A stretch of DNA of 64,000 nt, taken from the NCBI GenBank assembly GCA_017531225.1, contig JAFXLL010000007.1, forward strand, positions 62,001 to 126,000, read 5' to 3'. This DNA is from Bacteroidales bacterium. GTDB taxonomy: Bacteria; Bacteroidota; Bacteroidia; Bacteroidales; F082. The position numbers and the translations under genes are program-made. This document shows, piece by piece, positions 10,337-63,100 of this stretch (positions are counted from its first letter, which is position 1; each line of letters starts with the position of its first letter). Under the pieces are notes generated by a model. The model saw nothing but the letters and a program-made list of their open reading frames with translations, was not told the origin of the DNA and did not search any database.

Positions 10337-11101
10337 TCACTTAAACTTCTGCCACAAGCGCGCCACCAATCCTTTCGGCAAAACGGCAATCAATGGTGGC
10401 AAATAATAATTCATCAAACCCGGCTTCACGACGCGACGATGATGGAACATCCTTCTCAAGGCACGGCGTACCAACCAGTGCGGGGTGCCGATCAAGCCAA
10501 TATTGACGCCCAATTTCAGCAGCGATGGCTTCAGCTTATAGAGCGGTGTGGCGATGGCCGCAGGACACACCGTGGTCACGCCTACGCCATAGGGACGCAT
10601 CTCAAAATACAACGACTTGCCGAAGCTCTTCAGATAGGCTTTGGTGGCCGAATAAATGGTAATACCAGGGCAAGGCAGCTTGGCCGCCATCGACGACATA
10701 TTGAGGATGTAGCCGCTGCCACGTTTCTTCATCTCCTCGCCATACAAGACGCAGAGCCTCGTCGGGGTGAACATGTGCAAACGCATCATCGTGAGCGCCT
10801 TGGCCTCGTTTTCGGTGGAGAGCTCCTCGAAGAAGAACATGCCAGCATTGTTGATCAGGATGTCGATCTGCAGGTTTTCCGCCTGGCAATAGCCAAACAG
10901 TTCCTCGGCAGCCGTTTCTTTGGCAAGATCCTGATAACGGCCAATCACATTGACGCCATAGGATTGCGAGAGTTCTGCTGCTGTTTTGGCCAATTCTTCC
11001 TGTTGGTTACTCACCAAAAGCAAGTCGTGGCCTTTGGCCGCCAATTGGCGTGCAAATTCCAGTCCCATACCTGAGCTTCCGCCCGTGATCAACGCTCTCA
11101 T
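10337..11101 (-). CDS. Short-chain dehydrogenase/reductase, candidate 3beta-hydroxysteroid dehydrogenase
   Basis: 254 residues from ATG 11101; the frame continues upstream only through non-ATG codons inside the preceding gene. Classical SDR: cofactor loop ITGGSSGMGLEFARQLA at the N-terminus, INNAGMFFFEEL, catalytic Ser in LNMSSMAA and YSATKAYLKSFG with Tyr-x3-Lys. One base separates it from the stop of the upstream flavin oxidoreductase, so it is the third gene of a three-gene operon. In Bacteroidota a cluster of SRD5A-like, flavin-oxidoreductase and SDR genes converts 3-oxo bile acids to isoallo forms; the SDR is then the 3beta-HSDH. That role is inferred from context only. Confidence 0.8.
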   Translation of the reverse strand: MRALITGGSSGMGLEFARQLAAKGHDLLLVSNQQEELAKTAAELSQSYGVNVIGRYQDLAKETAAEELFGYCQAENLQIDILINNAGMFFFEELSTENEAKALTMMRLHMFTPTRLCVLYGEEMKKRGSGYILNMSSMAAKLPCPGITIYSATKAYLKSFGKSLYFEMRPYGVGVTTVCPAAIATPLYKLKPSLLKLGVNIGLIGTPHWLVRRALRRMFHHRRVVKPGLMNYYLPPLIAVLPKGLVARLWQKFK

Positions 11102-11102
11102 A

Positions 11103-12332
11103 TCACAATGTCCTTTCCGCTTCGTCAATTTCCTTTTGCAGTTTCTCCGGCAGGTTTTCCACGCAGTGGTGACACTTCATCTCTAAGGTGTACATGCGGC
11201 CGATGCAGTAGTTAGAGTGCTTGCAGCCGCTGCGAGTGATCTCGCCGCGCTGAAGTTTGTTTACAAACTCGGTGTCGTGCACCAAGGCGCGCGCCACCTG
11301 CAAGCCCATGAAACCAGCATCAAGCACCTCTTCCATCTTTTCTTTCGAAATTAGGCCTCCCACATAGATCAACGGTAACTTCAAATTAGCCCGAAACACC
11401 TTGGCATCCTCCAAGAAGTAACCTTCGCTATAAGGTCTGGTGGGAATCATCAGTCGGCCTACGAAAGCCAAGCCCCACTTGAGCCACCAGAATTTTTTCA
11501 AGTCCATGTAATGGCGTAAGGTCTTCAAAGGCATGGCGCCACGCATCACCTCCATCGGAGCCTTACTAACGAAGCCCGCTGTCAGCACCAAGGCATGTAC
11601 GCCGAGACGTTCCAATTCTTGCGCCACCTTGATGCATTCCTCTTGCTGCATGCCGCCTTTGAAGCCGTCGTGCATGTTCACCTTGACCACCACGCCCATG
11701 TCGTCAGCCGCCACACGCATCACCTCTTCAATGACCAAACGCATGAAGCGCATACGGTTTTCAAGACTGCCACCAAACTCATCATGGCGACGGTTTGTGT
11801 AAGGTGACAGGAACTGGCTGATCAGGTAGCCATGTCCCGCATGGATCTCTACGCAGTCGAATCCCGCTTGACGAGCCAGCTCAACGGCATGTCCAAAGTC
11901 CTTCACCAAGCCATAGATCTCATCCTTGCGGAGCTTACGGACGAAAGTCGGAGAATAAAGGTTAAAGCCGCCTGAAGCGCCTACGGGCTTGCAGCCACAA
12001 GTGGCGCGATGCGTCATGTTGCCGCAATGACCCAACTGGATGGAGGCTTTGGCTCCCTCGGCATGGATGGCGTCGGTGAGCCGTTTCAGCTCGGGCACAA
12101 TCTCCTCGCGCATCCACAGCTGGCCGTTGAACGACAGTCCCGACTGACTCACAGCGGCATACGCCACCGTAGTCATGCCCACGCCGCCACGGGCTACCGC
12201 CGTGTGGTAGTTGAACAAATCCTCAGAAGGCCTGTTGCCATAGGCCATGTTTTCAAAAGCCGCAGAGCGGATCACCCTGTTGCGCAGGGTGACAGGTCCG
12301 ATCTGACAGGAAGTGAATATCTTTGATTCCAT
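11103..12332 (-). CDS. NADH:flavin oxidoreductase (OYE family), candidate steroid 5beta-reductase/ene-reductase
   Basis: 409 residues, an Old Yellow Enzyme TIM barrel. N-terminal LRNRVIRSAAFENMAYGN binds FMN; SIQLGHCGNM and EIHAGHGYLISQFLSP carry the active-site His residues; NRRHDEFGGSLENR is the family signature; a Gly in LIYVGGLIS binds the FMN phosphate. The end keeps paired cysteines (CKHSNYC, MKCHHC) reminiscent of the Fe-S motif of larger dienoyl-CoA-reductase relatives, but the FAD/NAD domains of those proteins are absent. Middle gene of the operon, 3 bp after the SRD5A-like gene. The 5BR-type role is inferred from the cluster. Confidence 0.85.
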   Translation of the reverse strand: MESKIFTSCQIGPVTLRNRVIRSAAFENMAYGNRPSEDLFNYHTAVARGGVGMTTVAYAAVSQSGLSFNGQLWMREEIVPELKRLTDAIHAEGAKASIQLGHCGNMTHRATCGCKPVGASGGFNLYSPTFVRKLRKDEIYGLVKDFGHAVELARQAGFDCVEIHAGHGYLISQFLSPYTNRRHDEFGGSLENRMRFMRLVIEEVMRVAADDMGVVVKVNMHDGFKGGMQQEECIKVAQELERLGVHALVLTAGFVSKAPMEVMRGAMPLKTLRHYMDLKKFWWLKWGLAFVGRLMIPTRPYSEGYFLEDAKVFRANLKLPLIYVGGLISKEKMEEVLDAGFMGLQVARALVHDTEFVNKLQRGEITRSGCKHSNYCIGRMYTLEMKCHHCVENLPEKLQKEIDEAERTL

Positions 12333-12335
12333 AGT

Positions 12336-13103
12336 TTACCAAATAAACGGGATCATCCGTTTTGTCTTTTTTGTATCCAGTTGATTACCAAACTCTACCT
12401 TATATCGGTCATAAATCCTCGACGCCCTTGGCGCTAAGTTGGCGAAGGTCCAAACGGCAAACACGGCTCCCGACCATGACCAGGTGAGGATGGCAAAGCC
12501 GATCCATTCCACCAACTCGCCAAAGTAATTGGCCGAGGTGACATAGCGGAACATGCCTTCCTTCGGAAGATAATGGCCTGAGTCGCCATCCTTGCGGAGA
12601 TTGCGAATGATATCATCCGACTGAATATTGATGTACATCCCAATCAGGAAAATCAAGAAACCGGAGATGAACTTCGGAGTGGTCAGCCAATCGGGACCAT
12701 AGTAGTCGTCAGGCGATAGATAAAAGATCCAGCCGCCCTGCATCAAGGCGTTCAGCACGTTGAATGTCACCCCCATCAAGATGATCGACAGAGGCATCAC
12801 GCTATTTCCACGCATGCGGAAAGGAAACACGAAGGAGCGCTGGATGTAATGGAGTTCAAACAAGAACAGAAAAGCCATTCGCACCAAATCATCACGTCGA
12901 TCCGAACACAGCCACAACACCAGCATGGCGATAAACACAGGCGCTTCCATCAGCACCCAGCCGAGTTTATTATTGATGGCCGGACCCCACTTTTTATCAT
13001 AGAACTTGCCGTAACCTGCATCCACGAAGAAAAGGCTCACAAACACCACCACAGCGATGCCTGTCATAACCATGAGAAAGATATTGAATTGATAAAGTGT
13101 CAT
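12336..13103 (-). CDS. Steroid 5-alpha-reductase family (SRD5A/DUF1295) membrane protein
   Basis: 255 residues with about six hydrophobic segments. The C-terminal half has the family hallmarks: IGMYINIQSDDIIRNLRK, GMFRYVTSANYFGELVEWIG, a WSWSGAVFAVWT span, NLAPRASRIYDRYKVEF and the terminal RMIPFIW. These enzymes reduce the C4-C5 double bond of 3-oxo-4-ene steroids with NADPH in the membrane. Length and motifs are close to human SRD5A1. First gene of a three-gene minus-strand operon; promoter box at 13130-13137. Substrate is inferred from family plus context. Confidence 0.85.
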   Translation of the reverse strand: MTLYQFNIFLMVMTGIAVVVFVSLFFVDAGYGKFYDKKWGPAINNKLGWVLMEAPVFIAMLVLWLCSDRRDDLVRMAFLFLFELHYIQRSFVFPFRMRGNSVMPLSIILMGVTFNVLNALMQGGWIFYLSPDDYYGPDWLTTPKFISGFLIFLIGMYINIQSDDIIRNLRKDGDSGHYLPKEGMFRYVTSANYFGELVEWIGFAILTWSWSGAVFAVWTFANLAPRASRIYDRYKVEFGNQLDTKKTKRMIPFIW

Positions 13104-13129
13104 TACTTGGATTCTTAAAAAGAAAACTG

Positions 13130-13137
13130 CAAAAGTA
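13130..13137 (-). promoter_or_regulatory. -7 box for the steroid-type operon
   Basis: Minus strand TACTTTTG fits TAnnTTTG, 26 bp before the ATG at 13103. It lies back to back with the plus-strand box at 13171. Confidence 0.45.
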
Positions 13138-13203: not shown

Positions 13204-13686
13204 ATGAAAAAAAAGATCGTTAAAGCCCTGACGTTGCTATGCTTTATGGCTGGTTTCATGCTTCAAGCCAATGCGCAGAACGTCACCCTTGTCGTCACCA
13301 ATACCAATGGTTCTGAACAAACTTATCAGTTGACCGAAGAGAGTCAACTCCATTTTGAAAACGGCGAAAGACTTGTCATTGAAAATGCAAACGGCTCCAA
13401 CGTCACTTTGCAGCTTTCCGATATTCGTAAAATTGTATGCTCCGAAATGGTTGGCACCGAGGAAAACGCAGCTTCAAAGCTACAGATCCTCCCCAACCCT
13501 TCACATAACCAAGTCATCCTCAAAAACCTTTCAGGCAACTGCCAAGGACACATCTACACGCTCGACGGACGGATGGTCAAGGCTTTTGAGGCTTCCGAAG
13601 GCATGATGCTCGACATCAGCGACCTTTCCGAAGGAATGTATCTGCTCAACATCGATGGTCAAACCCTAAAACTGATGAAGCTATGA
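13204..13686 (+). CDS. Small secreted protein with T9SS C-terminal sorting domain
   Basis: 160 residues: a signal peptide ending in ANAQ at about residue 25, a short beta-rich middle with the common Bacteroidales motif VTLQLSDIRKIV, and from about residue 93 a type A T9SS sorting domain (LQILPNPSHNQVIL ... GHIYTLDGRMVKAF ... LSEGMYLLNIDGQTLKLMKL). Nothing catalytic is visible; almost the whole mature protein is the anchor domain. Its TGA overlaps the ATG of the beta-helix gene (ATGA), so the two are made together. Confidence 0.8.
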   Translation: MKKKIVKALTLLCFMAGFMLQANAQNVTLVVTNTNGSEQTYQLTEESQLHFENGERLVIENANGSNVTLQLSDIRKIVCSEMVGTEENAASKLQILPNPSHNQVILKNLSGNCQGHIYTLDGRMVKAFEASEGMMLDISDLSEGMYLLNIDGQTLKLMKL

Positions 13687-15950
13687 AAAAGATCGCATTC
13701 CTTTTGACCATTTTGATCAGTTGCCTCGGCCTGCAAGCCCAGGATTACTACATCAACCTGCATACGGCTGGACAGGTTATGTTTCAGAGCAATGTGAACG
13801 GAATCAATAGCATGAACTTCCAGGGAAGTAACCCCACTTCGCTCAACATCAACTTGTCGAACGACAATTACTCCTTCCCTATCAGTGCTTTTGACAGCAT
13901 CACTTTCGACCTTCAGAACCCGGCTCAACTTGGCGACACCGTGATGGTCAACTACAACGGAAGTACCGCTACCGTGCAGAATCCATTCCCGTCAAGCGTC
14001 TTTGTTACGACAAGCGGTGCGAAAGTCACCATCTCCTCCATCGGCACGTCGAACATCGTTTATTGCCTGTCAGGAACAGCTGAGCCTGGACGTTTCGAGA
14101 TTGAAAGCACCACCACTCCAACTATCTTGTTGAATGGAGTTAGTCTCACCAATCCCACTGGCAAAGCCATGGATTTGACCTGCGAAGATGGCATCATCCT
14201 CAAGCTTGCCGACGGCACTGAGAATCAGCTTTGCGATGGCGCGGAAAGCGACAAAAAAGCCGCTTTGATGTGCAACAACGACCTGCTCGTTCAAGGCAAC
14301 GGCACACTTACCGTGACAGGCCTCGTCCAACACGCCGCAAAGGTAAAAGGACAGCTTAACATGACTTCAGGAACTATCGTCGTTGCGAGCTCGGTCACCG
14401 ATGGCATTCACGCCGAAGGCCTTCTCGTTCAAGGCGGCAATATCAACGTGCTGTCATGCGGCGACGATGCCCTGACCAGCGAGTTGGATGCCTATATTTA
14501 CGGCGGCAACATCACGATTACCAGTAGCAGCGATAGCATCAACGCCATCTCTATCGATAGCACCTTAATCGTCAACGGAGGCACCATCGACATCAACATC
14601 ACTGGGAATGACGCCAAGTGTATCAAGGCTGACAAAGAGCTTACCATCAACGGCGGCACCTTCATCCTGAACCACTCAGGTGATGTGTCGAAAGGCATCA
14701 AGTCGAACCAAGCTATCACCATTACCGACGGTGACTTCACAATCGTTTCATCAGGCAGCACCGTTTTGGAAACCATTAGCGGCCAGAATGTGCCATCGTA
14801 TTGCACTGCCATCAAAGGCGACACCGACATCAACATCTCGGGCGGCACGTTCAATATCACTTTGCCTACCACCAACCATGGCGGAAAGAGCATCAGTGCC
14901 GATGGCAACCTGACCATCAGCGGTGGCACATTCGATATTCTTACGCAAGGTGACGGAGCGGCCTACACCGTTTCCGGCAACACCAAGGATGCCTACACCT
15001 CGTCGTGTATCAAGAGTGACGGCAACATGGTCATTTCAGGAGGTAACTTCACCTTGAGAAGCACGGGCTCAGGCGGCAAAGGTATCAGTGCAGACGGCAC
15101 TCTCGAGTTAGGCATTCCTAACGGTAACAACGAGGATTTGATTCTCGATGTCACAACCACTGGCAATCGCATCACCGTGTCTTCCGGTGGCGGCTGGCCC
15201 GGTGGCGGTGGTGGCGAATACGCCAATCCCAAAGCTATCAAGGCACAAGGACTGCTCACCATCAACAGCGGAACCACAACAGTTTTAACTACTGGCACCG
15301 GCGGTGAAGGTCTGGAATCAAAGACGCAAATCAATATCGAAGGTGGACAGCACTACTTCAAATGCTACGATGACTGCATCAATTCGTCAGGCAAGATAAT
15401 CTTCAACGACGGTGTGACCGTTTGCTTCAGCAACGGCAACGACGCTGTCGACTCGAACGCAGGACAAGCAGGTGCCATCACCATCGGCAACGGCGTTATT
15501 TTCGCCTATTCCACCAAAGGCAGCCCAGAGGAAGGTTTTGACTGCGACAACAACAACTACATCAGAATTACTGGTACCGGCATCGGAATCAGTGCAGGCG
15601 GTTCGCAAGGCGGCGGCTGGCCCGGTGGCGGTGGCGGAGGAGGCACTATCACCAACCCAGCGCAAGGCTACAAATTCTACACTAGCAGTTACAACTTCCA
15701 AACTGGGAAATACTACACTTTATCAAGCGCCAGTGGTTCGGGGGGCACCAACATGGTGACGTTTAGCTTCGAAGCCAACTGCAATAGTTCCCTTGCTCTC
15801 ATCACGGCAACAGGCATGGTAAGCGGTAGCACCTATTACGTAAAATATGGCAATGAAGCACCGACCAATCCGACAACGGAATTCCACGGAATATACCTCG
15901 GCGGAACCTCATCTGCATCAACGCAAGCATTCAGCTTTATTGCGCAGTGA
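13683..15950 (+). CDS. Cthe_2159-type parallel beta-helix, carbohydrate-binding-domain protein
   Basis: 755 residues with a signal peptide (LTILISCLGLQAQ). The N-terminal 80 residues carry the same FPISAFDSITFDL-type motif as its small partner. From about residue 125 it is a long series of beta-helix rungs: LNGVSLTNPTGKAMDLTCED, NITITSSSDSINAISIDS, and repeated ISGGTF / INGGTF turns, as in the Cthe_2159 family of calcium- and polysaccharide-binding proteins. Two Gly-rich WPGGGGG loops occur near residues 503 and 645. No T9SS sorting domain is evident at the C-terminus (ends STQAFSFIAQ). Likely exported and glycan binding; ligand unknown. Confidence 0.75.
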   Translation: MKKIAFLLTILISCLGLQAQDYYINLHTAGQVMFQSNVNGINSMNFQGSNPTSLNINLSNDNYSFPISAFDSITFDLQNPAQLGDTVMVNYNGSTATVQNPFPSSVFVTTSGAKVTISSIGTSNIVYCLSGTAEPGRFEIESTTTPTILLNGVSLTNPTGKAMDLTCEDGIILKLADGTENQLCDGAESDKKAALMCNNDLLVQGNGTLTVTGLVQHAAKVKGQLNMTSGTIVVASSVTDGIHAEGLLVQGGNINVLSCGDDALTSELDAYIYGGNITITSSSDSINAISIDSTLIVNGGTIDINITGNDAKCIKADKELTINGGTFILNHSGDVSKGIKSNQAITITDGDFTIVSSGSTVLETISGQNVPSYCTAIKGDTDINISGGTFNITLPTTNHGGKSISADGNLTISGGTFDILTQGDGAAYTVSGNTKDAYTSSCIKSDGNMVISGGNFTLRSTGSGGKGISADGTLELGIPNGNNEDLILDVTTTGNRITVSSGGGWPGGGGGEYANPKAIKAQGLLTINSGTTTVLTTGTGGEGLESKTQINIEGGQHYFKCYDDCINSSGKIIFNDGVTVCFSNGNDAVDSNAGQAGAITIGNGVIFAYSTKGSPEEGFDCDNNNYIRITGTGIGISAGGSQGGGWPGGGGGGGTITNPAQGYKFYTSSYNFQTGKYYTLSSASGSGGTNMVTFSFEANCNSSLALITATGMVSGSTYYVKYGNEAPTNPTTEFHGIYLGGTSSASTQAFSFIAQ

Positions 15951-50892: not shown

Positions 50893-53800
50893 ATGAAAAA
50901 AACATTACTTCAACTGCTCGCCATCGCTTTTTTGGTATTGACCGCCAACATGGCTGTGGCACAGACGTACACCTTCCCCGTGAGAGGAACTCAGGGTTTC
51001 ACCCTGACTCAATCCACCAGGAACGGTGCACGCGTCAACTATGAGCTGGGACAGTTCTCCTTGAGCCAGATCAACTATCGTGGCGAGGAGATGTCAGAAA
51101 TCAGCATCAACGCCATCTGCATCCCCAACGATGCTGGTCTCCCGAACCTCCCTGTGGAAAGCCGATTGATCGCCATCCCACAAGGTGCCAAGGCTCAAAT
51201 CAACGTGGTTCGCGCTGAGAAGCAGACATTCCAGAACGTGAATATTGCTCCTGCCCTTCGCCTCCAGGCTGAAGACGAGGAACCTGAGATGAATTATGAG
51301 AAGGACATGAAGGTCTACGCTAAAAACGCCTTCTATCCTGAAAATCCCTTCTCCGTGAACGAGTCGTATATCCGTGGTGTGGACGCCATCAACGTATCCA
51401 TCACTCCTTTCCAGTACAACCCTGTCACCAAGGAGTTGGTGGTGTATACCGATATCGAGCTCTCCGTCGAGTATAGCGGTGGCAACGGCCACATCGGCGA
51501 TGACCGTCTGCGTTCCCCCTACTGGGATCCCATTCTCGCCGCTGAGCTGATGAACTATGACCAGCTGCCAGTGATCGACTATGAGGCTCGTATGCAGGAC
51601 TGGATCAGAAACAACCGCGATGGTGCCGAGTACCTCATCATCATCCCGAACAATGATGCATGGGAACCATACGCACAACAGCTGAAGGAATTCCGCACCA
51701 AGCAAGGCATCATCACTGAAGTCTACCGCTTGGACGAGATTCCGGCAACCACCACGTCACAACTGAAGACCTGGTTCCACAACGCATACTCCACTTGGCA
51801 AATCGCCCCAGTGGCCGTATGTCTGTTTGGCGACCATAACACCAACATGGCTCTGGGTATTCCTGCCGAGACCACCAGCCACCCCTACAGTGGTAGCTGC
51901 ATCACCGACAACTTCTATGCTGACGCAGTAGGTAACGACAACCTGCCCGACATGGTATTCACCCGTCTGGTAGCACAAAACGAGACCGAGCTTCCAATTT
52001 TTGTCAGCAAACAGATTGAGTATGAAACCGCTCCTAACACCGACGCCTCTTTCTATAACGCTCCTATCACTGCCTTAGGATGGCAAACCGAGCGTTGGTT
52101 CCAGCTCTGCTCCGAGGTGTTCGGCGGCTATATGCGTAACCATGGCTACAACCCACAACGTATCAACTGCCTCTATCAAGGTAGCACACCAGGCAGCGTG
52201 TGGTCATCAGCACAAAACACAGCCACCGTGGTCAACTACTTCGGTCCTAACGGTCAAAACTACATTCCATCAAATCCTCAAGACATGGGCGGTTGGACCG
52301 GCGGCACCCCTGATCAAGTAGTGCAGGCTGTGAACAACGGTACCTTCTGGGTACAGCACCGCGACCACGGTCTTGACGAAGGCTGGGGCGAACCTGCTGT
52401 CCGTAACCATCATATCGATCAACTGAACAACGTCGGCAAACTGCCTTTCGTGATGTCCATTAACTGCCAGACTGGTATGTTCAACTACACTGGCTCAAAC
52501 GGCAACTGCTTCACCGAGAAATGGCTGCGCCGTACCTTCAACGGACAGAACGCTGGCGCTGTTGGCGTGCTCAGCCCCACTGAAGTCTCCTACTCATTTG
52601 TGAACGATGCCTTTGTATGGGGTGTGTACGACCTCTTCGATGGCGACTTCCTGCCCACCTATGGCCCATTTGCTGCAAACACTGGCAACTGGATGCCCGC
52701 CTTCGGTAACGTAGCTGGTAAATACTTCCTGGCCCAGAGTTCATGGCCTTACAACGCCGACTCTAAGGATATCACCTACACCATGTTCACCGCACACTGC
52801 GATGCCTTCTTGAGAATCTACACACAAGTGCCTCAGACCATGGCCGTGAATCACCAGAGTGTTCAACTGGCTGGTCTCGTCCAATTCCAAATTACAGCCC
52901 CCGAAGGCACTACCATCGCACTGACCAAAGGCGAAGGCGCGAACTTGGAGATCGTGGCCGTTGCAACAGGTACAGGATCCGTCCAAACTATCGACATCGC
53001 TCCTCAGGTTCCTCCAACAGTACTCCATCTCACTGTGACAGGTCAAAACTACCTCCGTTACGAGGCCGATATCGATGTGATTCCTGCTGACGGACCGTAC
53101 ATCATCGTCAACGAATATGAACTCAGCGACGAAGCTACACAACTCAACTTCGGTGAGAATGCTGGATTCAACATCCAGCTTAAGAACGTTGGCAACTCAA
53201 CAGCTCCTGCCGGCTCCATGACGCTTACCTCCGAATCAGAGTATGTGAGCATCACCAACGGCACCGCTGAATTCACTACCATCAACTCAAACAATACCCT
53301 CGACCTGTCAGAGGCCTTTGCTTTCACCATCTCCGACGAAGTGCCCAACAACACCCCCATCGAGTTCTTGATCACCATCTCCAGTGGTGATGACACATAC
53401 GAGAGTTATATCACCATGAAAGCTTATGCTCCTGTCTTCCAAATTGGCGACGTCACCATCACTGAGCTTGAAGGCGATGGCAACGGCCGCCTCGATCCAG
53501 GCGAGCGAGTCAGACTGAGATTCCCCGTCATGAACAAAGGTAACGCTGCCTCAAGAGAGACTAACATTGAGTTGGTGATGAACAACGTCTTCATGCAAAT
53601 CATCAGCGATCCTGTGATCACTACCAATAGTATCGGCGCCAACGGAACCATGGCTGTAGAATATGAAGTCTATGTAGGTGGCGCTCCTTCGGGTTTCGCA
53701 GCAGAATACACCTTGAATGTGGTTTCAGGCGTTTACACGGCTTCGAAAGACTTCATGTCAAAGATCGGCCTCAACGTCGAAGACTTCGAAGCTGGCGAGT

Positions 53801-55506
53801 TCAACACCACTCTTTGGACCAACGACCTGCCCTATCCTTGGACGTTTGTAACCGATGATCCATACGAAGGCCAATACTGTGTGAAATCAGGACACATCGG
53901 CGACAATCAGGAAACTGTATTGACGCTGAACTTTGAAGTTGGCGAGCCCGACTCCATCGCCTTCTATTATAAGGTGTCATCAGAATCAGGCTATGATAAA
54001 ATGCATTTCTTCATTGACGGCCAAGAACAAGGAACCTGGTCAGGCACTGTGGCATGGACTATAGCACAATACGCTGTAAACCCTGGCACTCACACCTTTG
54101 TCTGGAAATACACAAAAGACACCAGTGTGGCAAGCGGCGGCGACTGCTGCTGGATCGACTTTGTCATCCTGCCACGGGATGTGAGCCTCTCCGTCAACGC
54201 AGGTCTTGACATGACCACTTGTGTTGATATGCCAGCCCAAATCAACGGCTATGCGGCAAACCAAACCTCTCTGGAATGGACTACTGCCGGTGACGGCACT
54301 TTCGATGATGTCACCAGTCCAACTCCTGTTTATACTCCTGGCACACAAGACATCGACAACGGCAGCGTCGTGCTCACCATCACCGCCCATAAGGACTCTG
54401 AGACCCTCTCAGACGACATGACGCTGAGCTTCGAAAGCCCTCTCTATATTAACAACGCCTTGATCGATTACTACTATTGCGCTGACAACAGCCCGAAAGA
54501 GATTGCTGTAGAAATCAGTGGTGATTACACTACATTCACTTGGGTTACCGAAGGCGATGGCACATTTGAAAATGCCTCCGCATTAGAGACCTCCTACACT
54601 CCAGGTCCTCAAGACCTTGCCAATGGTTATGCTCCTATTATCGCCTTGGCGGAGAATGAAGCTTGCGGTCCAACAAGCTATGATTACACCATCTCGTTTG
54701 AGCCATTGCCACAGATGACCCTTGCCGCAGAATCCATCGAAATCTGCCAAACCGAAGAGGCTGTGATGAACTTCACCTTATCAGGCGGAATCATTTACAT
54801 CCCTTCTGAACCCGTATTCGTCATCAACATCAACGGTGTCAATTACGATGAATTCTACTCCGGTGCCAACTCACTCAACCTTGGCACTATGGAACCAGGT
54901 GAGAACATTATCAACATCCGCAGTATCCGGAACCAGCTTTGCCACGTGACATTCGAAGAAGGTGAATTCACCTTCACCGTCAACGTGATTCCTGGTGAAG
55001 CCGCTCCTGAAATCGAAGGTGTTGCCGAACTTGATGTTTACCTCGTCTCCTCCACCTCCTACAATGTCACCAGCGACGTAATGGTTGACTTCACTTTGGA
55101 ACCAGAAGACGCTGGCACCTTGGTTCCTGCTAACGATGGCAAGAGCGTTGAAATCAGATGGAGCGAGTCCTACAAAGGCAATGCTGTGCTTACAGCCATT
55201 CCTGTGGATGGTTGCTACATCGACAATGGCACCATGAACATTGTGGTTAAGAACTCATACGACGTAAACGAGATTGCCAACAACACCAAGATCTACCCCA
55301 ACCCAACATCAGGAAAGATTAACATCGAAGTTGCTGGCATGACCCACGTCACCGTGGTCAACGCCATCGGACAGTTCGTGTATGACACCGACGTCGATGC
55401 CGACCAAGTAAACGTTGACATGACTCCATTCCCAGCAGGTACCTACCTGGTGAGAATCGTCACCGACAAGGGCGTGTGCACCAAGCACATCAACCTGATC
55501 AAATAA
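50893..55506 (+). CDS. Gingipain-family (C25) cysteine protease with T9SS sorting domain
   Basis: 1537 residues. Signal peptide (AIAFLVLTANMAVAQ), gingipain-type propeptide (about 25-225: VNYELGQFSLSQINYRGEEM, SVEYSGG), then the C25 catalytic domain: EYLIIIPNNDAWEPYAQQL, VCLFGDHNTN, the catalytic His in WVQHRDHGLDEGWG (H492) and the nucleophile in FVMSINCQTGMFN (C525). Downstream are CARDB-like modules (GDGNGRLDPGERVRLRF), a cleaved-adhesin/MAM-like lectin domain (NVEDFEAGEFNTTLW, about 960-1095), two immunoglobulin-like repeats with EWTTAGDGTFDD and TWVTEGDGTFEN, and a T9SS CTD (KIYPNPTSGKINIEVAG). Exported by the T9SS; extracellular proteolysis. Confidence 0.93.
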   Translation: MKKTLLQLLAIAFLVLTANMAVAQTYTFPVRGTQGFTLTQSTRNGARVNYELGQFSLSQINYRGEEMSEISINAICIPNDAGLPNLPVESRLIAIPQGAKAQINVVRAEKQTFQNVNIAPALRLQAEDEEPEMNYEKDMKVYAKNAFYPENPFSVNESYIRGVDAINVSITPFQYNPVTKELVVYTDIELSVEYSGGNGHIGDDRLRSPYWDPILAAELMNYDQLPVIDYEARMQDWIRNNRDGAEYLIIIPNNDAWEPYAQQLKEFRTKQGIITEVYRLDEIPATTTSQLKTWFHNAYSTWQIAPVAVCLFGDHNTNMALGIPAETTSHPYSGSCITDNFYADAVGNDNLPDMVFTRLVAQNETELPIFVSKQIEYETAPNTDASFYNAPITALGWQTERWFQLCSEVFGGYMRNHGYNPQRINCLYQGSTPGSVWSSAQNTATVVNYFGPNGQNYIPSNPQDMGGWTGGTPDQVVQAVNNGTFWVQHRDHGLDEGWGEPAVRNHHIDQLNNVGKLPFVMSINCQTGMFNYTGSNGNCFTEKWLRRTFNGQNAGAVGVLSPTEVSYSFVNDAFVWGVYDLFDGDFLPTYGPFAANTGNWMPAFGNVAGKYFLAQSSWPYNADSKDITYTMFTAHCDAFLRIYTQVPQTMAVNHQSVQLAGLVQFQITAPEGTTIALTKGEGANLEIVAVATGTGSVQTIDIAPQVPPTVLHLTVTGQNYLRYEADIDVIPADGPYIIVNEYELSDEATQLNFGENAGFNIQLKNVGNSTAPAGSMTLTSESEYVSITNGTAEFTTINSNNTLDLSEAFAFTISDEVPNNTPIEFLITISSGDDTYESYITMKAYAPVFQIGDVTITELEGDGNGRLDPGERVRLRFPVMNKGNAASRETNIELVMNNVFMQIISDPVITTNSIGANGTMAVEYEVYVGGAPSGFAAEYTLNVVSGVYTASKDFMSKIGLNVEDFEAGEFNTTLWTNDLPYPWTFVTDDPYEGQYCVKSGHIGDNQETVLTLNFEVGEPDSIAFYYKVSSESGYDKMHFFIDGQEQGTWSGTVAWTIAQYAVNPGTHTFVWKYTKDTSVASGGDCCWIDFVILPRDVSLSVNAGLDMTTCVDMPAQINGYAANQTSLEWTTAGDGTFDDVTSPTPVYTPGTQDIDNGSVVLTITAHKDSETLSDDMTLSFESPLYINNALIDYYYCADNSPKEIAVEISGDYTTFTWVTEGDGTFENASALETSYTPGPQDLANGYAPIIALAENEACGPTSYDYTISFEPLPQMTLAAESIEICQTEEAVMNFTLSGGIIYIPSEPVFVININGVNYDEFYSGANSLNLGTMEPGENIINIRSIRNQLCHVTFEEGEFTFTVNVIPGEAAPEIEGVAELDVYLVSSTSYNVTSDVMVDFTLEPEDAGTLVPANDGKSVEIRWSESYKGNAVLTAIPVDGCYIDNGTMNIVVKNSYDVNEIANNTKIYPNPTSGKINIEVAGMTHVTVVNAIGQFVYDTDVDADQVNVDMTPFPAGTYLVRIVTDKGVCTKHINLIK

Positions 55507-55569: not shown

Positions 55570-56751
55570 TTACTTCGAAATAATGTCATAAGACAGATTG
55601 AATCTCAAGGTGTTCTCCAAAGGACTTACACCAATGGTGTTTCCAATAGGAATCAAATAAGAGACATCCAGACCAAAAACATTAAATTTCAAAGCAGCGC
55701 CCAAGGTAAAATACTTACGATTACCCTTCATGGCTGATTCATTGAAATAACCGCCACGGACAGAGAAAACGTGGTTGTACCAATATTCCACGCCAATGCC
55801 GAAGTTATATTCGCTCAACTCTTCCATAAATGGACCGCTGCCGTTGCCGTTTCTGTCATAGCCTGGAGCATCGTAGAAAGATTGGATGATACCAGCCATT
55901 ACAGAGACGTTGTCATCCTTGCCGTACACAATTTCGCCTGTGTTAGGATCCTTGATGGGAGGTGTAGGCACCAAAAGCTTGGTAACATCCACCGTAAAAG
56001 CCAATGAGTTGTATTCATCAAGATCCATTCTGAGGCCAGCGCCTAAACGCAAGGTGGTCGGGATGAAATCTCTGGAAACAATATCCTGACGATAGCTCAC
56101 CTTTGAACCGATGTTGCTGATATTCACACCCCAAGTGAAGTCGGCATCCATATCACGGAACCATTCCACGGGACGCTTGTAGTAAATGGCGACGTCAGCA
56201 GCCACTGACCAACCAGCATTGGTACCTTCAGCGTTTTGGGTCAGGTTGGAATAGATGAAACGACCTGCCACTGCACCGGAGAGGTAATCAGTCAACATTC
56301 TGGAATAAGCTACATCGATAGCCCATTCATTAGGCTTGTAGGTGCCGATTTCGTGACCAGTTTGATCTCTAAAAGTGATCTCACCTACGTTAAAATAACG
56401 CAATGTAGCTGCCAAAGCCGAAGTGGAATTCAACTTGGTGGCAAATGCGAGATAAGCCAAACCCATATCGGGTACCAAGTTGTGCAACCATGGGCTGTAA
56501 CCCAAACCGACACTCATGCGCGGCTCCATAAAGGTATACTTAGCTGGATTGAAATGCATACTGTAAACATCAGGATCCGTAGCCACGCCGCAATCGCCCA
56601 TAGAACCGCCACGGGCATCAGGAGCGATAGATACAAAAGGAACTGCCGTGGTAATGACATTGGGCTCTCGTGCCACCGTAGTCCCCTGGGCAAAGGATTT
56701 AACTCCCATAACGACCATAACGGCCATCAAAAGAAAAACTTTAATCTTCAT
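55570..56751 (-). CDS. porV: T9SS outer-membrane shuttle protein PorV
   Basis: 393 residues from ATG 56751, with signal peptide (VFLLMAVMVVMGVKSFAQ). It is a FadL-like barrel: VPFVSIAPDARGGSMGDCGVA, PAKYTFMEPRMSVGLGYSPW, VGEITFRDQTGHEIGTYKPN, and NTLRFNLSYDII at the end, all close to the T9SS PorV/LptO pattern. PorV receives CTD cargo from the translocon and hands it to PorU in the attachment complex. It has its own -7 box (56783-56790) but also follows the two porU-like genes. Confidence 0.93.
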   Translation of the reverse strand: MKIKVFLLMAVMVVMGVKSFAQGTTVAREPNVITTAVPFVSIAPDARGGSMGDCGVATDPDVYSMHFNPAKYTFMEPRMSVGLGYSPWLHNLVPDMGLAYLAFATKLNSTSALAATLRYFNVGEITFRDQTGHEIGTYKPNEWAIDVAYSRMLTDYLSGAVAGRFIYSNLTQNAEGTNAGWSVAADVAIYYKRPVEWFRDMDADFTWGVNISNIGSKVSYRQDIVSRDFIPTTLRLGAGLRMDLDEYNSLAFTVDVTKLLVPTPPIKDPNTGEIVYGKDDNVSVMAGIIQSFYDAPGYDRNGNGSGPFMEELSEYNFGIGVEYWYNHVFSVRGGYFNESAMKGNRKYFTLGAALKFNVFGLDVSYLIPIGNTIGVSPLENTLRFNLSYDIISK

Positions 56752-56782
56752 ACAAACAAAATTATTTTCAGATAATAACATG

Positions 56783-56829: not shown

Positions 56830-59800
56830 TTATTGTTTCACCATTCTTTGGCACATGGAACTGCTCTTGCCTTTGGAGTCAGTTACCGTGATTCTATAGA
56901 CATAAAGTCCTGGAGACAAGCAACTTCCGTCCCAACGAATCGGGTTCACCACGCCACTTTCGGCATTGGTCTCTTTTTGTATGGAAGTCACCTGACGGCC
57001 AAACACGTCATACACGTCAATGTTGACGGAAAGACGGTCAGTCATGTCGCCATGGTCGAAAACGAACCAAGTCTCACTATCAAATGGATTCGGGAAATTA
57101 CGCACTTGGGCAATGATGGCCCCTTGACGCACCGTAAACGTCATCTCCACTTCCGAAGAGTTATTCTGAGTATCCCACGCTTTCAGTGAAAACTCATAAG
57201 TACCATTCTCCAAATTCGACATCGGAATAGCGATACGTCCCCGTTGATAATCGTCAACAGCTGGCTCATACCAGTCATTAAGGATTTGGTTTTCATAGCC
57301 ATCCACATTGCTTCTGAGAATGATGTCACGGCCAAAACTCACATCGTAATGATAAATGCCATGCTCATCATATAAGTCGGCATAAAACACGCCGCTTCGA
57401 CGCACAACATCACCATTCTCGAAATCAGGAGTATTCCAATACAGCTTGATCTCGGGCCCCTTGTTATCGACTACATCCAATGGCTTGTTGACAATCAAAC
57501 CGCCCAGCACTCCGTTGGCATCCACCTTTCTGATGGAGTCGTAGGCATAATAGCTCACACGGCCGGCACCTGATCCCTGGTTGACATCGGCTGGGACAGG
57601 GAACTGTATCTTAAAATGGCCTTTAACGACGCTGGCTTTACCCTCAAAAATCACATCATTATAGAAGGAATAATTATACTGGGTTCCAAAATTGCCTAAA
57701 GTAGTGTAATTCGACTTGACATCATAAACCTTCACTTCGATCACACCATTAAACTCAGTGTCAATCGTCGTTCCTATGCTAGTGACAAAACCTTCGATGG
57801 TGCCCAAACCAGCGTTGACTTCAGCCTGAGTCGTCATAATTCCTTGAGACGGATAGGAAAAACGCAAGGCTGGATCGCCAAACAACACATACACCATATT
57901 GTCTTTCTTGTAGTACCGAGAATCGGATTTCACAAGTCGGTAAATATCGCCGAAACGCATCGTCTGTTGATCCAATTTGTCATACAAGTGATCGTGGAAT
58001 GACTTTGACAACTCAAAGTTCTTGGGAGCCAAGGTCGGCCGCATGGTAGTCAGCAAAGCGATAGCGCCGCCATGCGCATTGAGCAATAGCAACTCGCCGC
58101 CCGACACCACATTAGGATTGTCGAACTTGCTAAACTCACAGGTAGCGGTATGAATAAAAGGCAGGTGGTCATAGTTGTCAAGAGCAAGAATGTCAGAAAT
58201 ACCCAACACCCATTCGTCGCTCAGACTCTTCACGCCGCCATGTCCGGTATAACTTAACACGCTTACGCCCTTGGTAAAATAATCCATGAGTTGGGCATTC
58301 GCCTCGGGAATGCGCTTACCCACAGCTGTATTAATGATTGGATAGGAGTCAATATACAGCTTTTTAGTCATGGCAACACAGTTAGAGGTATCCAGCATAT
58401 AGTCAAACGTATCGGTATGGGTAGCATACGTTCTTGTATCATTGTCAGCCATCAAGAGATGGTTGTTCTTCCAGATACCATGCGTTGCAGAAAGGTCAGC
58501 GTAATGCTTTATCTTAGCCACCACGGCATCACCCTGTTCAGGAGTGGTAATGGGGATGCGCCCTAAGCCAATGTCCACCATACCATCACAATTCTGTCCT
58601 TCTTCCTGATCCATCAAGGCGAAATAATCGTCAGAGCACATTGAACTCACCTCATCAAACGGATAACTGGCGATTTCATAGGTAGGAACAAAATTCCTGT
58701 GCATCCCTTTGATGTCCCTGTAGTCGTGGGAGCCTTTACCCATGAACAGCACATATTTCAAGTTGCCTTGGCTGCGAAGATACACCATCCGAATAAAATC
58801 ACGGACAGCCGTAGGATCCATCGCTCCTGTGGCAAACTCGTTATAAATCTCTTGGACATCTACCACCAAACAATTCATGCCGTCGTTCACACGGTGGAAC
58901 GTTGCCAAAGCCTCCGATTGGTCCCAAAAGACACGTGGAGTGATAATCAGCATATTCGCATCAGTGATAGCGTGAAGGTTTTGGTTAGGGATGCGGTATA
59001 GCGAGGCAACCTGCTTCACTCCTGCAGGCTCAAACAAATGGAAATACCGCTCTATGGCCACATCAATGCCAAATGACGCATCACCCGAATTATAATCCAT
59101 GGGCTGACGGGAAGGGCATAATGGATTGGTGACATCCCAACATACCGTTTGCGTGCCAACACCAGTGAGTTGCACCTTGGTAGATGGTTCAGTCACTTGT
59201 GAAGGGACTATTCTGAAAGCCATCTCTCCACCGTGAAAACGCAACATACGCCAAAAGTTCAACACTATATAGTCGTTAAACAGCATCGGATTGGATGTAG
59301 TCTGAGGGATTTCATAGCGGATAACGACCGGGCCGCTATTGACAAAGACATTCCTAGCGACCCTATGTTCCTTACCAAAATCATAGTCGCCGTACTTTGC
59401 AATGGAATATTGATTGACAATTAGGATGTCATTGACCAACAGATTGTATGGAAAAGCCGCATTGCAACGACCAAGAACCTTTGATTCGATCCGGCAGGAC
59501 TTTGAATTATCGAGATCCGGTACATCAAAAACAAATTCCTTAAACCCATCCTGACCGGTGAAAAGGTCTCCATACCACGTCCTACCTGATGCGTATGGCG
59601 ACAATTCATCACTTTCATGATACAGGTAATCGGGGTAAGTATTGATAACAGGACTTGACGAGGTAGTCGACACCGGTTGGTTATCCTGAATACGCTGTCC
59701 CGAAACATCACTATCAAGACACAAAAAATAGAAGGTTGTGTCAGTATATGGGTTGGGCTCGTAGCTAAAGCCCTCATGGAAATCCATCACCATTTTGGTA

Positions 59801-60147
59801 GGGCCTTTACCATAAAACAGCACTTGAAGCGATCCGTCAACCGCCGAAGTCACCTGGATGGGAATTTCTGTAAGGTCATCGTAGCGTTCACTGGCATTGG
59901 CTTCAGGTAGTACGCCTGTAACATTGCCAAACATGCGGATCCTATCGGGGTTGAGATTACTAGTCTCCAGCCCTGCGGCTTGCAGCATGGCGTTGTCGAC
60001 AGCATAGACACCGTCTTCGGTGACGCCTATCTTAACCCAAGTGTTTTTGCTCAGGACAGACTCGTGCGACAGCCATTGGGCCCGCAACGGTGACGCACAA
60101 GCCAGTGCCATCCATAGCAATAAATATATCGTTTTTTTATAATTCAT
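56830..60147 (-). CDS. PorU-like C25 sortase, copy 1 (porV-proximal)
   Basis: 1105 residues from ATG 60147 (signal peptide LLLWMALACASPLRAQW). N-terminal VLSKNTWVKIGVTEDGVYAV is the PorU start; the catalytic C25 domain has the His in SYTGHGGVKSLSDEW (H636) and the nucleophile in HTATCEFSKFDNP (C670); ends with a CTD-like NFPNPFDSETWFVFDHGD and SPGLYVYRITVTDSKG. The family cleaves CTD signals and anchors cargo at the cell surface. It shares domain layout with the next copy but is clearly diverged. Starts 8 bp after copy 2 stop, so one operon. Confidence 0.88.
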   Translation of the reverse strand: MNYKKTIYLLLWMALACASPLRAQWLSHESVLSKNTWVKIGVTEDGVYAVDNAMLQAAGLETSNLNPDRIRMFGNVTGVLPEANASERYDDLTEIPIQVTSAVDGSLQVLFYGKGPTKMVMDFHEGFSYEPNPYTDTTFYFLCLDSDVSGQRIQDNQPVSTTSSSPVINTYPDYLYHESDELSPYASGRTWYGDLFTGQDGFKEFVFDVPDLDNSKSCRIESKVLGRCNAAFPYNLLVNDILIVNQYSIAKYGDYDFGKEHRVARNVFVNSGPVVIRYEIPQTTSNPMLFNDYIVLNFWRMLRFHGGEMAFRIVPSQVTEPSTKVQLTGVGTQTVCWDVTNPLCPSRQPMDYNSGDASFGIDVAIERYFHLFEPAGVKQVASLYRIPNQNLHAITDANMLIITPRVFWDQSEALATFHRVNDGMNCLVVDVQEIYNEFATGAMDPTAVRDFIRMVYLRSQGNLKYVLFMGKGSHDYRDIKGMHRNFVPTYEIASYPFDEVSSMCSDDYFALMDQEEGQNCDGMVDIGLGRIPITTPEQGDAVVAKIKHYADLSATHGIWKNNHLLMADNDTRTYATHTDTFDYMLDTSNCVAMTKKLYIDSYPIINTAVGKRIPEANAQLMDYFTKGVSVLSYTGHGGVKSLSDEWVLGISDILALDNYDHLPFIHTATCEFSKFDNPNVVSGGELLLLNAHGGAIALLTTMRPTLAPKNFELSKSFHDHLYDKLDQQTMRFGDIYRLVKSDSRYYKKDNMVYVLFGDPALRFSYPSQGIMTTQAEVNAGLGTIEGFVTSIGTTIDTEFNGVIEVKVYDVKSNYTTLGNFGTQYNYSFYNDVIFEGKASVVKGHFKIQFPVPADVNQGSGAGRVSYYAYDSIRKVDANGVLGGLIVNKPLDVVDNKGPEIKLYWNTPDFENGDVVRRSGVFYADLYDEHGIYHYDVSFGRDIILRSNVDGYENQILNDWYEPAVDDYQRGRIAIPMSNLENGTYEFSLKAWDTQNNSSEVEMTFTVRQGAIIAQVRNFPNPFDSETWFVFDHGDMTDRLSVNIDVYDVFGRQVTSIQKETNAESGVVNPIRWDGSCLSPGLYVYRITVTDSKGKSSSMCQRMVKQ

Positions 60148-60155
60148 AGTAATGC

Positions 60156-63100
60156 TTATCTGATAATGACAAATTTCGAAGTGACGGAAGCCTTTTCTCC
60201 TTGATCGTTGGTAGCACTGATGCAATACACATAGATACCAGAAGGAAGCAGCTGCCCGTTATTGGCACGACCATTCCAATAGAGAGGGTTGGTACGCGCC
60301 GAAGTACCGGCAACATGATCTTCGAGAATGGCTACATGGCGTCCCATGATATCGAAGATATTGATTTGGATATCCATATTGTTACCGATCTGATTATGGC
60401 CGAAGCTGAAATAGGCCTCGTTGCTGATAGGATTGGGGAAGCAGATGGGATCTTCGAGTACCATGAGGTCACTACTGGCCACCTTGAAATCAATGCTCGC
60501 CAACGTCGAATTGTTGTAAATATCCCATACCTTCAAAGTAAGCGTGTATTCTCCTTCCGCCAGGCCTTGCATCCTGTATTGAATCATACCCTTACCCTGA
60601 CTGCCGATATCAGCGACAAAATAGTCGTTTAGGTTGTACGATTCGTTTGAAGGCCCGTACAGCGTAGCCACAATATCATGACCGATGCCAGCACCAGTGG
60701 TGTTAATGCCGCTATCGTCATCCACATAGGCGATCAGCGTGGGGCTATCGCCAGTGACTCCACCGCTAACGAATCTCTCGTCATCGATAAACAACTCAAC
60801 CTGCGGTGGGGTTTCATCCATCTCGGCATCGTCGTAGAAACCACCGATAATGAAGTCTTCAAACAATCCCGAAGCATCTTTCTCATAATCGGTGGCATAA
60901 TAGCTCACCATACCCTTGCCAAAAGGATAGGCAATATCACGAGGAACGATGAAGTCGACAGAGAAATGCCCATTCACCACTTCGGCCTTTCCGTTGTACA
61001 AAACGCTTTGGCGTAAGTTGAACGATCTTGGGGTTGTTTCTTCGTCGCCAAAAGTGGTATAGTTCGTTTCCTTGTCATAAACACGCACATACACGATGCC
61101 ATTGAATGACTCATCCACCATACCTTCCATGTTTTTGACCACACCCTCGATGGTGGAGGGCTGCAATGCCTTGATGGTATCGCTGATGTTCGTGGTCTCC
61201 ACAGTCCATTTCGGCATGGGCAGCCGTAGTGCGGGATCTCCGAAGAACGCATAGTTCCTCTCGTATTCCGAGCCTTTGGTCTTGGCCATCCTGAACACAT
61301 CGCCAAGACGACGACGCTCACCATTTTCAATTTCAAACAGATGGTCGTAAATAGCACTGATAAAATGCTGGTTATTGGAGCCATAGGTTACCCTTGAGGT
61401 GGTGAACATGGCTATCATTCCACCATATTGGTTCAAAAAAGCGTATTCGCCCAATGAAGTTCTTTCATAGTCGTCATAACGGCTGAACTCGCAAGTGCCC
61501 GTGATCATCAATGGGTACATGGGACCGTTGCGCCATGAATTCACATCGGCGCGTTGAATAATACGCTCATCAGCCAACTGCACCTCGCCACCATGCCCAA
61601 CATAGTTAAGCACCAACGTACCTTTTTCCATCCTGTCGTTTATCGCCTTGTTGACATCTGGTGCCAGTTGCCCATTAGGCGTGTTTTCCTGTCGATAGGC
61701 ATCCAAATAGATTTTGTCAACTACCAAACGGTCTCCTCCTGTTTCCTTGATTTGGGCGGCATATCCTTCGGAATGATCAATGAACTCATCGCCTTGGGCA
61801 TCATCGCATACAAATGTAATGACGTTTCGCCAAGGTTGCATAGTGTTTTCGTTGGCTTCAAGATAACGTTCCACCTTGTCAACCATCTGGGTGGCCTGTT
61901 CAACCGTCGACACCGGGAAGCGGCCAGCGCCGATATCCGGTCTGGAGCCCGACAAAGCGCCTTCGCCATCGCCCATAAAGCAGAAATAATCATCAGTGAC
62001 GATACTGCTATGAATGTCAGCAGCTTGTCGAGCCTCGTAGGAAGGCACGAAGGTAACAACCCCATTCCTATTCTTGAAATCATAAGAAGCATCGCCAAAC
62101 AGCAACAGGTAACGCAACGGACGGCTGTCGGAATAAAGCATCTTGCAATAATCGCGGATGGCAGTGACATCAGTGGCACCGCATGCAAACTCGTTGTATA
62201 TCAGTTCCGGAGTCACTATTTTGATTCGCAAATCAGGATCATATTCCGCGTGGATGTCTTTCAGCCTGGAGGCCTGCGCAACAAAGTCGGGATATACCAC
62301 CATCAAATAATCATAGTTCCTATCGCCATGCAGATTCTGATTGGCAACAGCGCCCAACAAGGTAGGAGTGTGGAACGACGAACCGTCAAAGGCAATGAAT
62401 TCGTTTTTCTCATTTCCATACACCTTAAAGCTAAACACCAATCCCGAGAGCTGTCCATTGACCCGCTTAGGGCAAATGGAGTCGGTCACATTCCACACCT
62501 GTACCGAGCTTGACGCTCCGGAGAGCCTATAGGAATAGACCTTTGTTTCATCGGACGCCTCTGGGTTGCGAAACAGCATTTCAGCACCCGTGAATGAGAG
62601 CGACCTCCATGCGTTGACTTCGATGTAATCAACATAGCCAATGGATGTGGTTCCCGCCACGCCCACATGGTTAAGCGTCACTTTGACATCATCGCCCGTC
62701 ATAGAACCAGTAGCATTGCCAAACACCTCGTGAGCGAACGTCTTGTCAGATGCCAAGGTGGTGGTAGGGATAGAATAAGATTGGAGCATCTGGCCATTCA
62801 TAAAAAGCTGGAAGCTCGCCGGTCTCACATTCCGGCCGGCCGTAGCCAAACTAATCTTACATGGCCGATTGGTTTTGGCGTTTTTGAAGGTGAAGGTCTG
62901 CGTTATCGAGCCATTACCATCAATGATGTCGCTATAGTAGGTTCTTCCTCCATGGATGATATTGTACTTATCGATTTCATAAACCTGATAATCAAGAAAT
63001 TCATTCACTACCGAAGTCTCAGCAGAGGATGGTTGCGTATCTGTCGCCAACCTTTTTCCAGTACCTAAGCTGGCAGTAATGAAAGCATAGGAAAAGTCAT

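Follow-up and report, generated by a model that had tools for sequence, protein, structure and literature searches.

A three-gene SRD5A-OYE-SDR operon in an uncultured, largely ruminant Bacteroidales clade: a predicted steroid A-ring redox cassette that probably acts mainly on something other than bile acids

A compact three-gene locus of a kind described in gut Bacteroidota

This study concerns a three-gene locus in a stretch of 64,000 nucleotides (hereafter the window) from the genome of a Bacteroidales bacterium, covering positions 62,001 to 126,000 of contig JAFXLL010000007.1 in assembly GCA_017531225.1. The locus encodes a membrane reductase of the SRD5A type, a flavin oxidoreductase of the old yellow enzyme (OYE) family and a short-chain dehydrogenase/reductase (SDR), and is preceded by a candidate promoter element:

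12336-13103, minus strand: SRD5A-type membrane NADPH reductase, predicted delta4-3-oxosteroid 5alpha-reductase (255 aa; PF02544)
11103-12332, minus strand: OYE-family FMN oxidoreductase with a single domain, predicted 5beta-reductase or delta4-dehydrogenase (409 aa; PF00724)
10337-11101, minus strand: classical SDR, predicted 3-keto/3beta-hydroxysteroid dehydrogenase (254 aa from the ATG; PF00106)
13130-13137, minus strand: candidate Bacteroidetes -7 promoter box TACTTTTG, a match to TANNTTTG, 26 bases 5' of the first start codon

The genes are separated by 3 bp (12333-12335, between SRD5A and OYE) and by 1 bp (11102, between OYE and SDR), where the start of the SDR gene was taken to be an ATG; the list of open reading frames (ORFs) instead starts it at a TTG, at 11128. 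Both the ORF coordinates and the Pfam matches bear out the tightly spaced, same-strand trio that an earlier note on this DNA had described. The same note had placed the trio behind one promoter box. A box, TACTTTTG, is indeed present, and its model TANNTTTG is what we take to be the consensus of the Bacteroidetes -7 element; because this motif is common in the window (52 occurrences observed against 35.9 expected from shuffles), however, a lone match is weak promoter evidence, and inspection by eye showed no TTTG at the -33 position of the trio promoter.

With an SRD5A-family reductase, an OYE-family oxidoreductase and an SDR together, the window has the gene content of a cassette described from gut Bacteroidota. 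According to a review (PMC10382948), strains of Parabacteroides merdae, Odoribacter laneus and Bacteroides dorei form isoallolithocholic acid (isoalloLCA) from 3-oxo-delta4-lithocholic acid (LCA), disruption of the 5alpha-reductase gene (5AR) in P. merdae stopped the formation of alloLCA derivatives and allo-bile acids, and 5AR shares its cluster with genes for a predicted 3beta-hydroxysteroid dehydrogenase (3beta-HSDH) and for an NADH:flavin oxidoreductase regarded as a probable 5beta-reductase (5BR). A second review gives the same three steps for Bacteroides, and a study of chicken isolates notes that its Bacteroidetes have the SRD5A gene, all but two Odoribacter and a Parabacteroides. IsoalloLCA itself is linked, in the reviews, to immune control and to the inhibition of Gram-positive pathogens.

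Family membership and active-site residues of the three enzymes

The membrane protein scored 144.1 bits against the Steroid_dh family PF02544, well above the curated cut-off of 22.6, and its nearest solved structures are steroid reductases, namely PbSRD5A (7c83, E-value 2.2e-49) and human SRD5A2 (7bw1, 2e-34), which places it among the SRD5A steroid 5alpha-reductases. A DUF1295 match of 28.8 bits also exceeded that family's cut-off (20.4), and the enoyl-CoA reductase 22of was matched weakly (8.5e-09); a plain DUF1295 protein or an enoyl-CoA reductase was rejected in view of the stronger PF02544, 7c83 and 7bw1 matches. The PbSRD5A paper names a Q-E-Y catalytic motif as well as the NADPH-binding residues. 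Residues E53 and Y86 of the window protein align with E57 and Y91 of SRD5A2 and are the same in all 215 aligned SRD5A rows, a set that includes near-copies and comprises both cassette-linked and unlinked proteins. In a pairwise alignment with PbSRD5A, nine of its NADPH residues recur unchanged in letter and number (N159, D163, R170, N192, Y193, E196, T219, N222 and R226).

The OYE protein scored 185.7 bits against Oxidored_FMN PF00724 (cut-off 27). Among the aligned cassette OYEs, restricted to those of 380-500 aa (132 of 135 cassette loci), H164, H167 and Y169 are kept in 131, the remaining one being masked. A further set of residues is conserved near the C-terminus: C370 and C376 in 132/132, C387 in 131/132 (one gap) and H372 in 129/132. 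This end, spanning window residues 370-390, thus reads as an almost invariant C-x-H-x-N-Y-C...C, and its Cys/His set is a possible 3Cys-1His metal cluster site. The usual iron-sulfur motif of long OYEs is CxxCxxxC, and the cassette segment is unlike it. A profile search of the PDB with the OYE at 1e-60 returned nothing. Against the NCBIfam equivalog profile for BaiCD the protein reached 190.3 bits, over the first 257 of 642 positions; given a cut-off of 825 bits, and a length of 409 aa against a 642-position profile with a second domain, we rejected it as a true BaiCD.

The third protein qualifies as a classical SDR, with 141.6 bits against adh_short PF00106 (cut-off 26.6) and the catalytic Ser, Tyr and Lys, which are present in all 81 aligned cassette SDRs (those scoring >100 bits and measuring 230-330 aa). 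Its substrate and C3 stereochemistry are not readable from sequence, and the earlier caution that individual substrate specificities cannot be read in this way was right. No hydroxysteroid dehydrogenase appeared by name among the best 60 of 557 or the best 60 of 254 PDB matches of the SDR.

Linkage of the trio is conserved across relatives

Linkage was followed in loci from sampled genomes and in a set of named loci, the best 80 of 568 relatives, which may omit records of the window's own genome; the named loci and those of the order sample overlap, some being the same contigs. Of the sampled genomes, 97 of 295 in the class and 162 of 393 in the order have a PF02544 match. Besides the window's own, 48 order-wide hits scored 118-157 bits, and 33 of these loci were retrieved with long flanks: 27 of the 33 contain an OYE gene, and 20 contain both OYE and SDR, all in the window's gene order. 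No OYE was found in any of 10 loci with PF02544 hits of at least 164 bits. Among the named loci, OYE is present in 78 of 80, at a median gap of 3 bp, and OYE with SDR in 65, all on one strand; 58 of these have the gene order of the window, and in six of the remaining seven the SDR comes first. Presence in the locus here means anywhere within up to 12.8 kb (the OYE gene does not adjoin the SRD5A gene in L134 and L174). The linkage rate among the best 80 is not valid for all SRD5A genes, because the query alignment was built from cassette members. As the same-strand linkage recurs in relatives, we rejected chance adjacency of the trio, and the earlier judgement that coincidence is unlikely is borne out.

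The phylogeny of the SRD5A branch for which the earlier note had asked points in the same direction. In a tree of 186 SRD5A rows (172 different), a branch with an SH-aLRT value of 100 separates all 105 cassette rows, including that of the window, and 9 unlinked rows from PbSRD5A and 71 unlinked Bacteroidia rows. In other words, the window protein is grouped with cassette-linked proteins, apart from the unlinked Bacteroidia proteins. It is placed with ruminant uncultured Bacteroidales, and loci with the titles Sanguibacteroides, Barnesiella, Alistipes and Parabacteroides belong to the cassette group as well (on the short Parabacteroides contig the SDR is not present). The tree was made by a quick method with a midpoint root, has some long branches, and leaves out genus mates L188-L216 as well as rows outside 200-345 aa; a cassette row is one with an OYE of >300 bits, so that L130, whose OYE is partial and lies at the end of a contig, went into the unlinked rows, and the flank is about 1.5 kb or less in L002-L031 and L037-L066. 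One cassette locus (L181) comes from a genome whose title, Pseudoflavonifractor, is a Firmicutes name; since the SRD5A of this locus groups with Heminiphilus, the title probably belongs to a mislabelled or mixed genome.

The proposed match to the Bacteroidota 5AR-5BR-3betaHSDH cassette is therefore upheld by the composition reported for P. merdae, by the conserved SRD5A-OYE-SDR linkage and by the cassette tree group. Judged by these comparisons, the window trio adds one more example to a cassette type already described, here from a clade that is uncultured and mainly ruminant. None of the best 80 of 568 loci bears the title of a characterised P. merdae, Odoribacter or Bacteroides species, and we recognised no publication on this clade among the titles and abstract openings of open literature on rumen steroid reductases and on isoallo bile acids with 5AR/5BR.

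None of the upstream and downstream neighbours of the trio is suggestive of bile. On its 5' side, divergently oriented, lies a gene for a short sorting-domain protein (13204-13686) that overlaps the start of one for a Cthe_2159-type carbohydrate-binding protein (13683-15950), and its 3' side carries genes for a DUF5606/DUF6852 protein and the dihydroorotate dehydrogenase genes. When neighbours were clustered across loci, the dihydroorotate dehydrogenase and DUF5606 neighbours recurred in 15-17 loci; among the 30 largest clusters, judged by place and first residues and with no family searches made, no recurring cluster besides the trio and overlapping ORFs was recognised as a bile or transport gene. 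Elsewhere in the window is a type IX secretion neighbourhood of three large peptidase C25 (gingipain/PorU-type) proteins (50893-55506, 56830-60225 and 60156-63521) with a PorV gene beside them (55570-56781). Searches of the window for Rfam families at the gathering threshold and for tRNA gave no matches.

Body sites and bile salt hydrolase genes fit a lineage not dependent on bile

As the make-up of the trio is that of the P. merdae cluster, the same reaction set is a natural inference, and the gene content favours reading the trio as strictly a bile-acid cassette, which would make isoallo-bile acids from 3-oxo bile acids as in P. merdae, in an organism at least partly intestinal. Body sites of the relatives bear on this reading in both directions. 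They were read from the titles of the named loci, 40 of which state a site or carry the label RUG, which we take to stand for rumen genome; the other 40 were left out, including at least five less close loci whose names hint at faeces or chicks. Of the 20 closest loci (identity of 80% or more), 13 have names that reveal a site. Eleven of these lie upstream of bile (one reticulum, four abomasum and six RUG), which speaks against a strict bile-acid role, and two come from cecum and duodenum, which speaks for it. Loci from before bile entry number 14 against 5 from after it at 66-79% identity, and 1 against 7 below 66%; the hindgut or faecal origin of seven of the eight most distant sited loci favours bile-acid use, as does the reported occurrence of isoalloLCA in the large intestine of dairy cows.

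A second line of evidence comes from PF02275, the bile salt hydrolase family, which has no match in the window's genome (98.4% complete). In a sample of 100 genomes of the genus, 60 have the SRD5A gene, 53 of them the window type, at 78-100% identity and including one fragment, and seven another type (68-72% identity). Full-length PF02275 was found in none of the 53 window-type genomes, 11 of which have weak partial matches (not counted as full-length), and in all seven genomes with the 68-72% type (G678, G686, G687, G688, G699, G700 and G712); five more genomes have a bile salt hydrolase without an SRD5A gene. In total, PF02275 matched in 29 of the 100 genomes, 17 of these matches being weak and partial. 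For bile salt hydrolase and cassette type, a Fisher test that takes no account of relatedness gave p 2.6e-9. The pattern fits a lineage not dependent on bile. The full-length matches in all seven genomes of the 68-72% subclade are in keeping with a bile-acid cassette, and a hydrolase of its own would be unnecessary to the organism if other microbes deconjugate; the absence of any match from the window's genome, and of a full-length one from the window-type genomes, argues the other way, as do the sites of its closest relatives, and we regard a strict bile-acid role as unlikely. The earlier suggestion that this organism may convert bile acids accordingly found no support in the hydrolase search or in the sites of its nearest relatives, mostly before bile entry.

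Proposed function and alternative substrates

Gene identity, linkage, conservation and all active-site residues bar one are established for the trio. We infer each of its reactions and substrates from sequence, and propose the following scheme. The SRD5A membrane protein would use NADPH to deliver a hydride to C5 of a 3-oxo-delta4 steroid, giving a 5alpha-3-oxo product; the flavin-dependent OYE would reduce the same double bond to a 5beta product or, run in reverse, convert 5beta-3-oxo steroids into the enone; and the SDR would reduce the 3-keto group to a 3-hydroxyl, probably the 3beta form, and oxidise it back. Combined, the three enzymes could switch a steroid between its 5beta and 5alpha forms and set its 3-hydroxyl. 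We consider it likely that the trio is a steroid A-ring redox cassette in one operon, kin to the gut-Bacteroidota cluster, with a main substrate here that is probably not a bile acid, because most sited close relatives come from compartments ahead of bile entry, and no full-length hydrolase match occurs in genomes of the window type. Sterol-derived 3-ketones from feed, or other host steroids, would be likelier substrates in this lineage. Our preferred reading is thus 3-oxo-delta4-steroid reduction with a substrate other than bile, plant sterols being one possibility; products of their reduction by microbes are reported to serve as faecal markers.

Several observations weigh against this interpretation. 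The Gln of the Q-E-Y motif (Q56) is a Met in the window protein (M52) and in all 215 aligned rows. This Gln has been reported to be required by human SRD5A2 and to show high conservation among the 5alpha-reductases studied, and Q56A and Q56L to abolish the activity of the human enzyme; Met-bearing enzymes must therefore compensate or differ somehow. The Met was rejected as a mark of the cassette, being present also in 80/80 rows without OYE. In addition, H230 is replaced by Ile in the window protein; this position is His in 63 of the 80 aligned rows without OYE. For the OYE, residue sets have been reported that tell clostridial hormone reductases from bile-acid reductases, and neither set is present in the window protein, which has a G before and a Q four after the active-site Tyr by our own assignment of positions. 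The SDR shows roughly equal similarity to many SDRs of non-steroid type. As for linkage, two loci in the 118-157-bit range, from other orders of the class and not among the 33 order loci, have neither OYE nor SDR (L033 and L034), and 15 of the 80 named loci are without a second or third partner, two of them ending within or soon after the OYE. The hydrolase pattern tracks two subclades, and is neither independent evidence per genome nor 60 separate cases; many of the genus genomes are incomplete, with 47 of 100 at completeness of at least 90% and contamination of at most 5%. Finally, a site label describes the contents sampled, into which abomasal or duodenal DNA may have been washed.

The Gln-to-Met change would also suit a non-steroid system, in which the SDR and SRD5A saturate allylic isoprenoid alcohols such as phytol or a polyprenol of the cell itself, and the OYE serves as another ene-reductase. 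The route would be to oxidise, reduce and reduce again, as known for dolichol, by SDR, SRD5A3-type reductase and SDR in turn. SRD5A3 and the SDR DHRSX are reported to act on polyprenol in three such steps, and phytol to be biohydrogenated to dihydrophytol in the rumen. The presence of two ene-reductases of different fold, however, makes sense for 5alpha/5beta stereochemistry, whereas for an acyclic enal one of them would seem superfluous; Pfam and PDB place the membrane protein with steroid reductases, and no SRD5A3 structure was among its four PDB hits; and bile acids changed when 5AR was disrupted in P. merdae, according to PMC10382948. We hold a non-steroid system to be highly improbable. 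Phytol as a substrate before bile entry, perhaps by a route like that of dolichol with SDR and SRD5A3, is less likely than plant sterols.

A broader reading, which we regard as rather doubtful, is that of a general plant-lipid reductive module in the bile-free rumen, which would turn phytosterol 3-ketones into 5alpha- and 5beta-stanols or saturate phytol, with bile-acid use in the hindgut as a secondary recruitment. If true, the module would be an unrecognised source of herbivore faecal stanol markers, or of the dihydrophytol from which phytanic acid in dairy products derives. Returning to the favoured steroid cassette, its occurrence in a clade sampled largely ahead of bile entry suggests that it may have evolved for something other than bile acids, and the trio offers a concrete gene set for steroid or plant-lipid reduction in the rumen.

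Comparison with known systems

The window SRD5A has in common with PbSRD5A (7c83) and human SRD5A2 (7bw1) its family, the catalytic Glu and Tyr and most NADPH residues, and differs from both in the Met for the motif Gln, the Ile for H230 and the linkage to OYE and SDR. In its OYE partner, H164, H167 and Y169 lie in the same H-x-x-H-G-Y segment as in the OYE YqjM (1z41), to which the window protein adds the conserved C-x-H-x3-C...C set and a hydrophobic W-W-L-K stretch, outside the aligned residues 2-265. With the clostridial steroid 5beta-reductases and BaiCD it shares the OYE barrel, whereas the residues at the reported specificity positions are different. The closest counterpart of the trio as a whole is the 5AR-5BR-3beta-HSDH cluster of Parabacteroides merdae, which, compared by way of its description in the review, comprises the same three enzyme classes, likewise clustered; in contrast to it, the window copy belongs to a subclade in which most sited named members are genomes from the forestomach or abomasum of ruminants, and the genomes with its SRD5A type are without a full-length bile salt hydrolase match.

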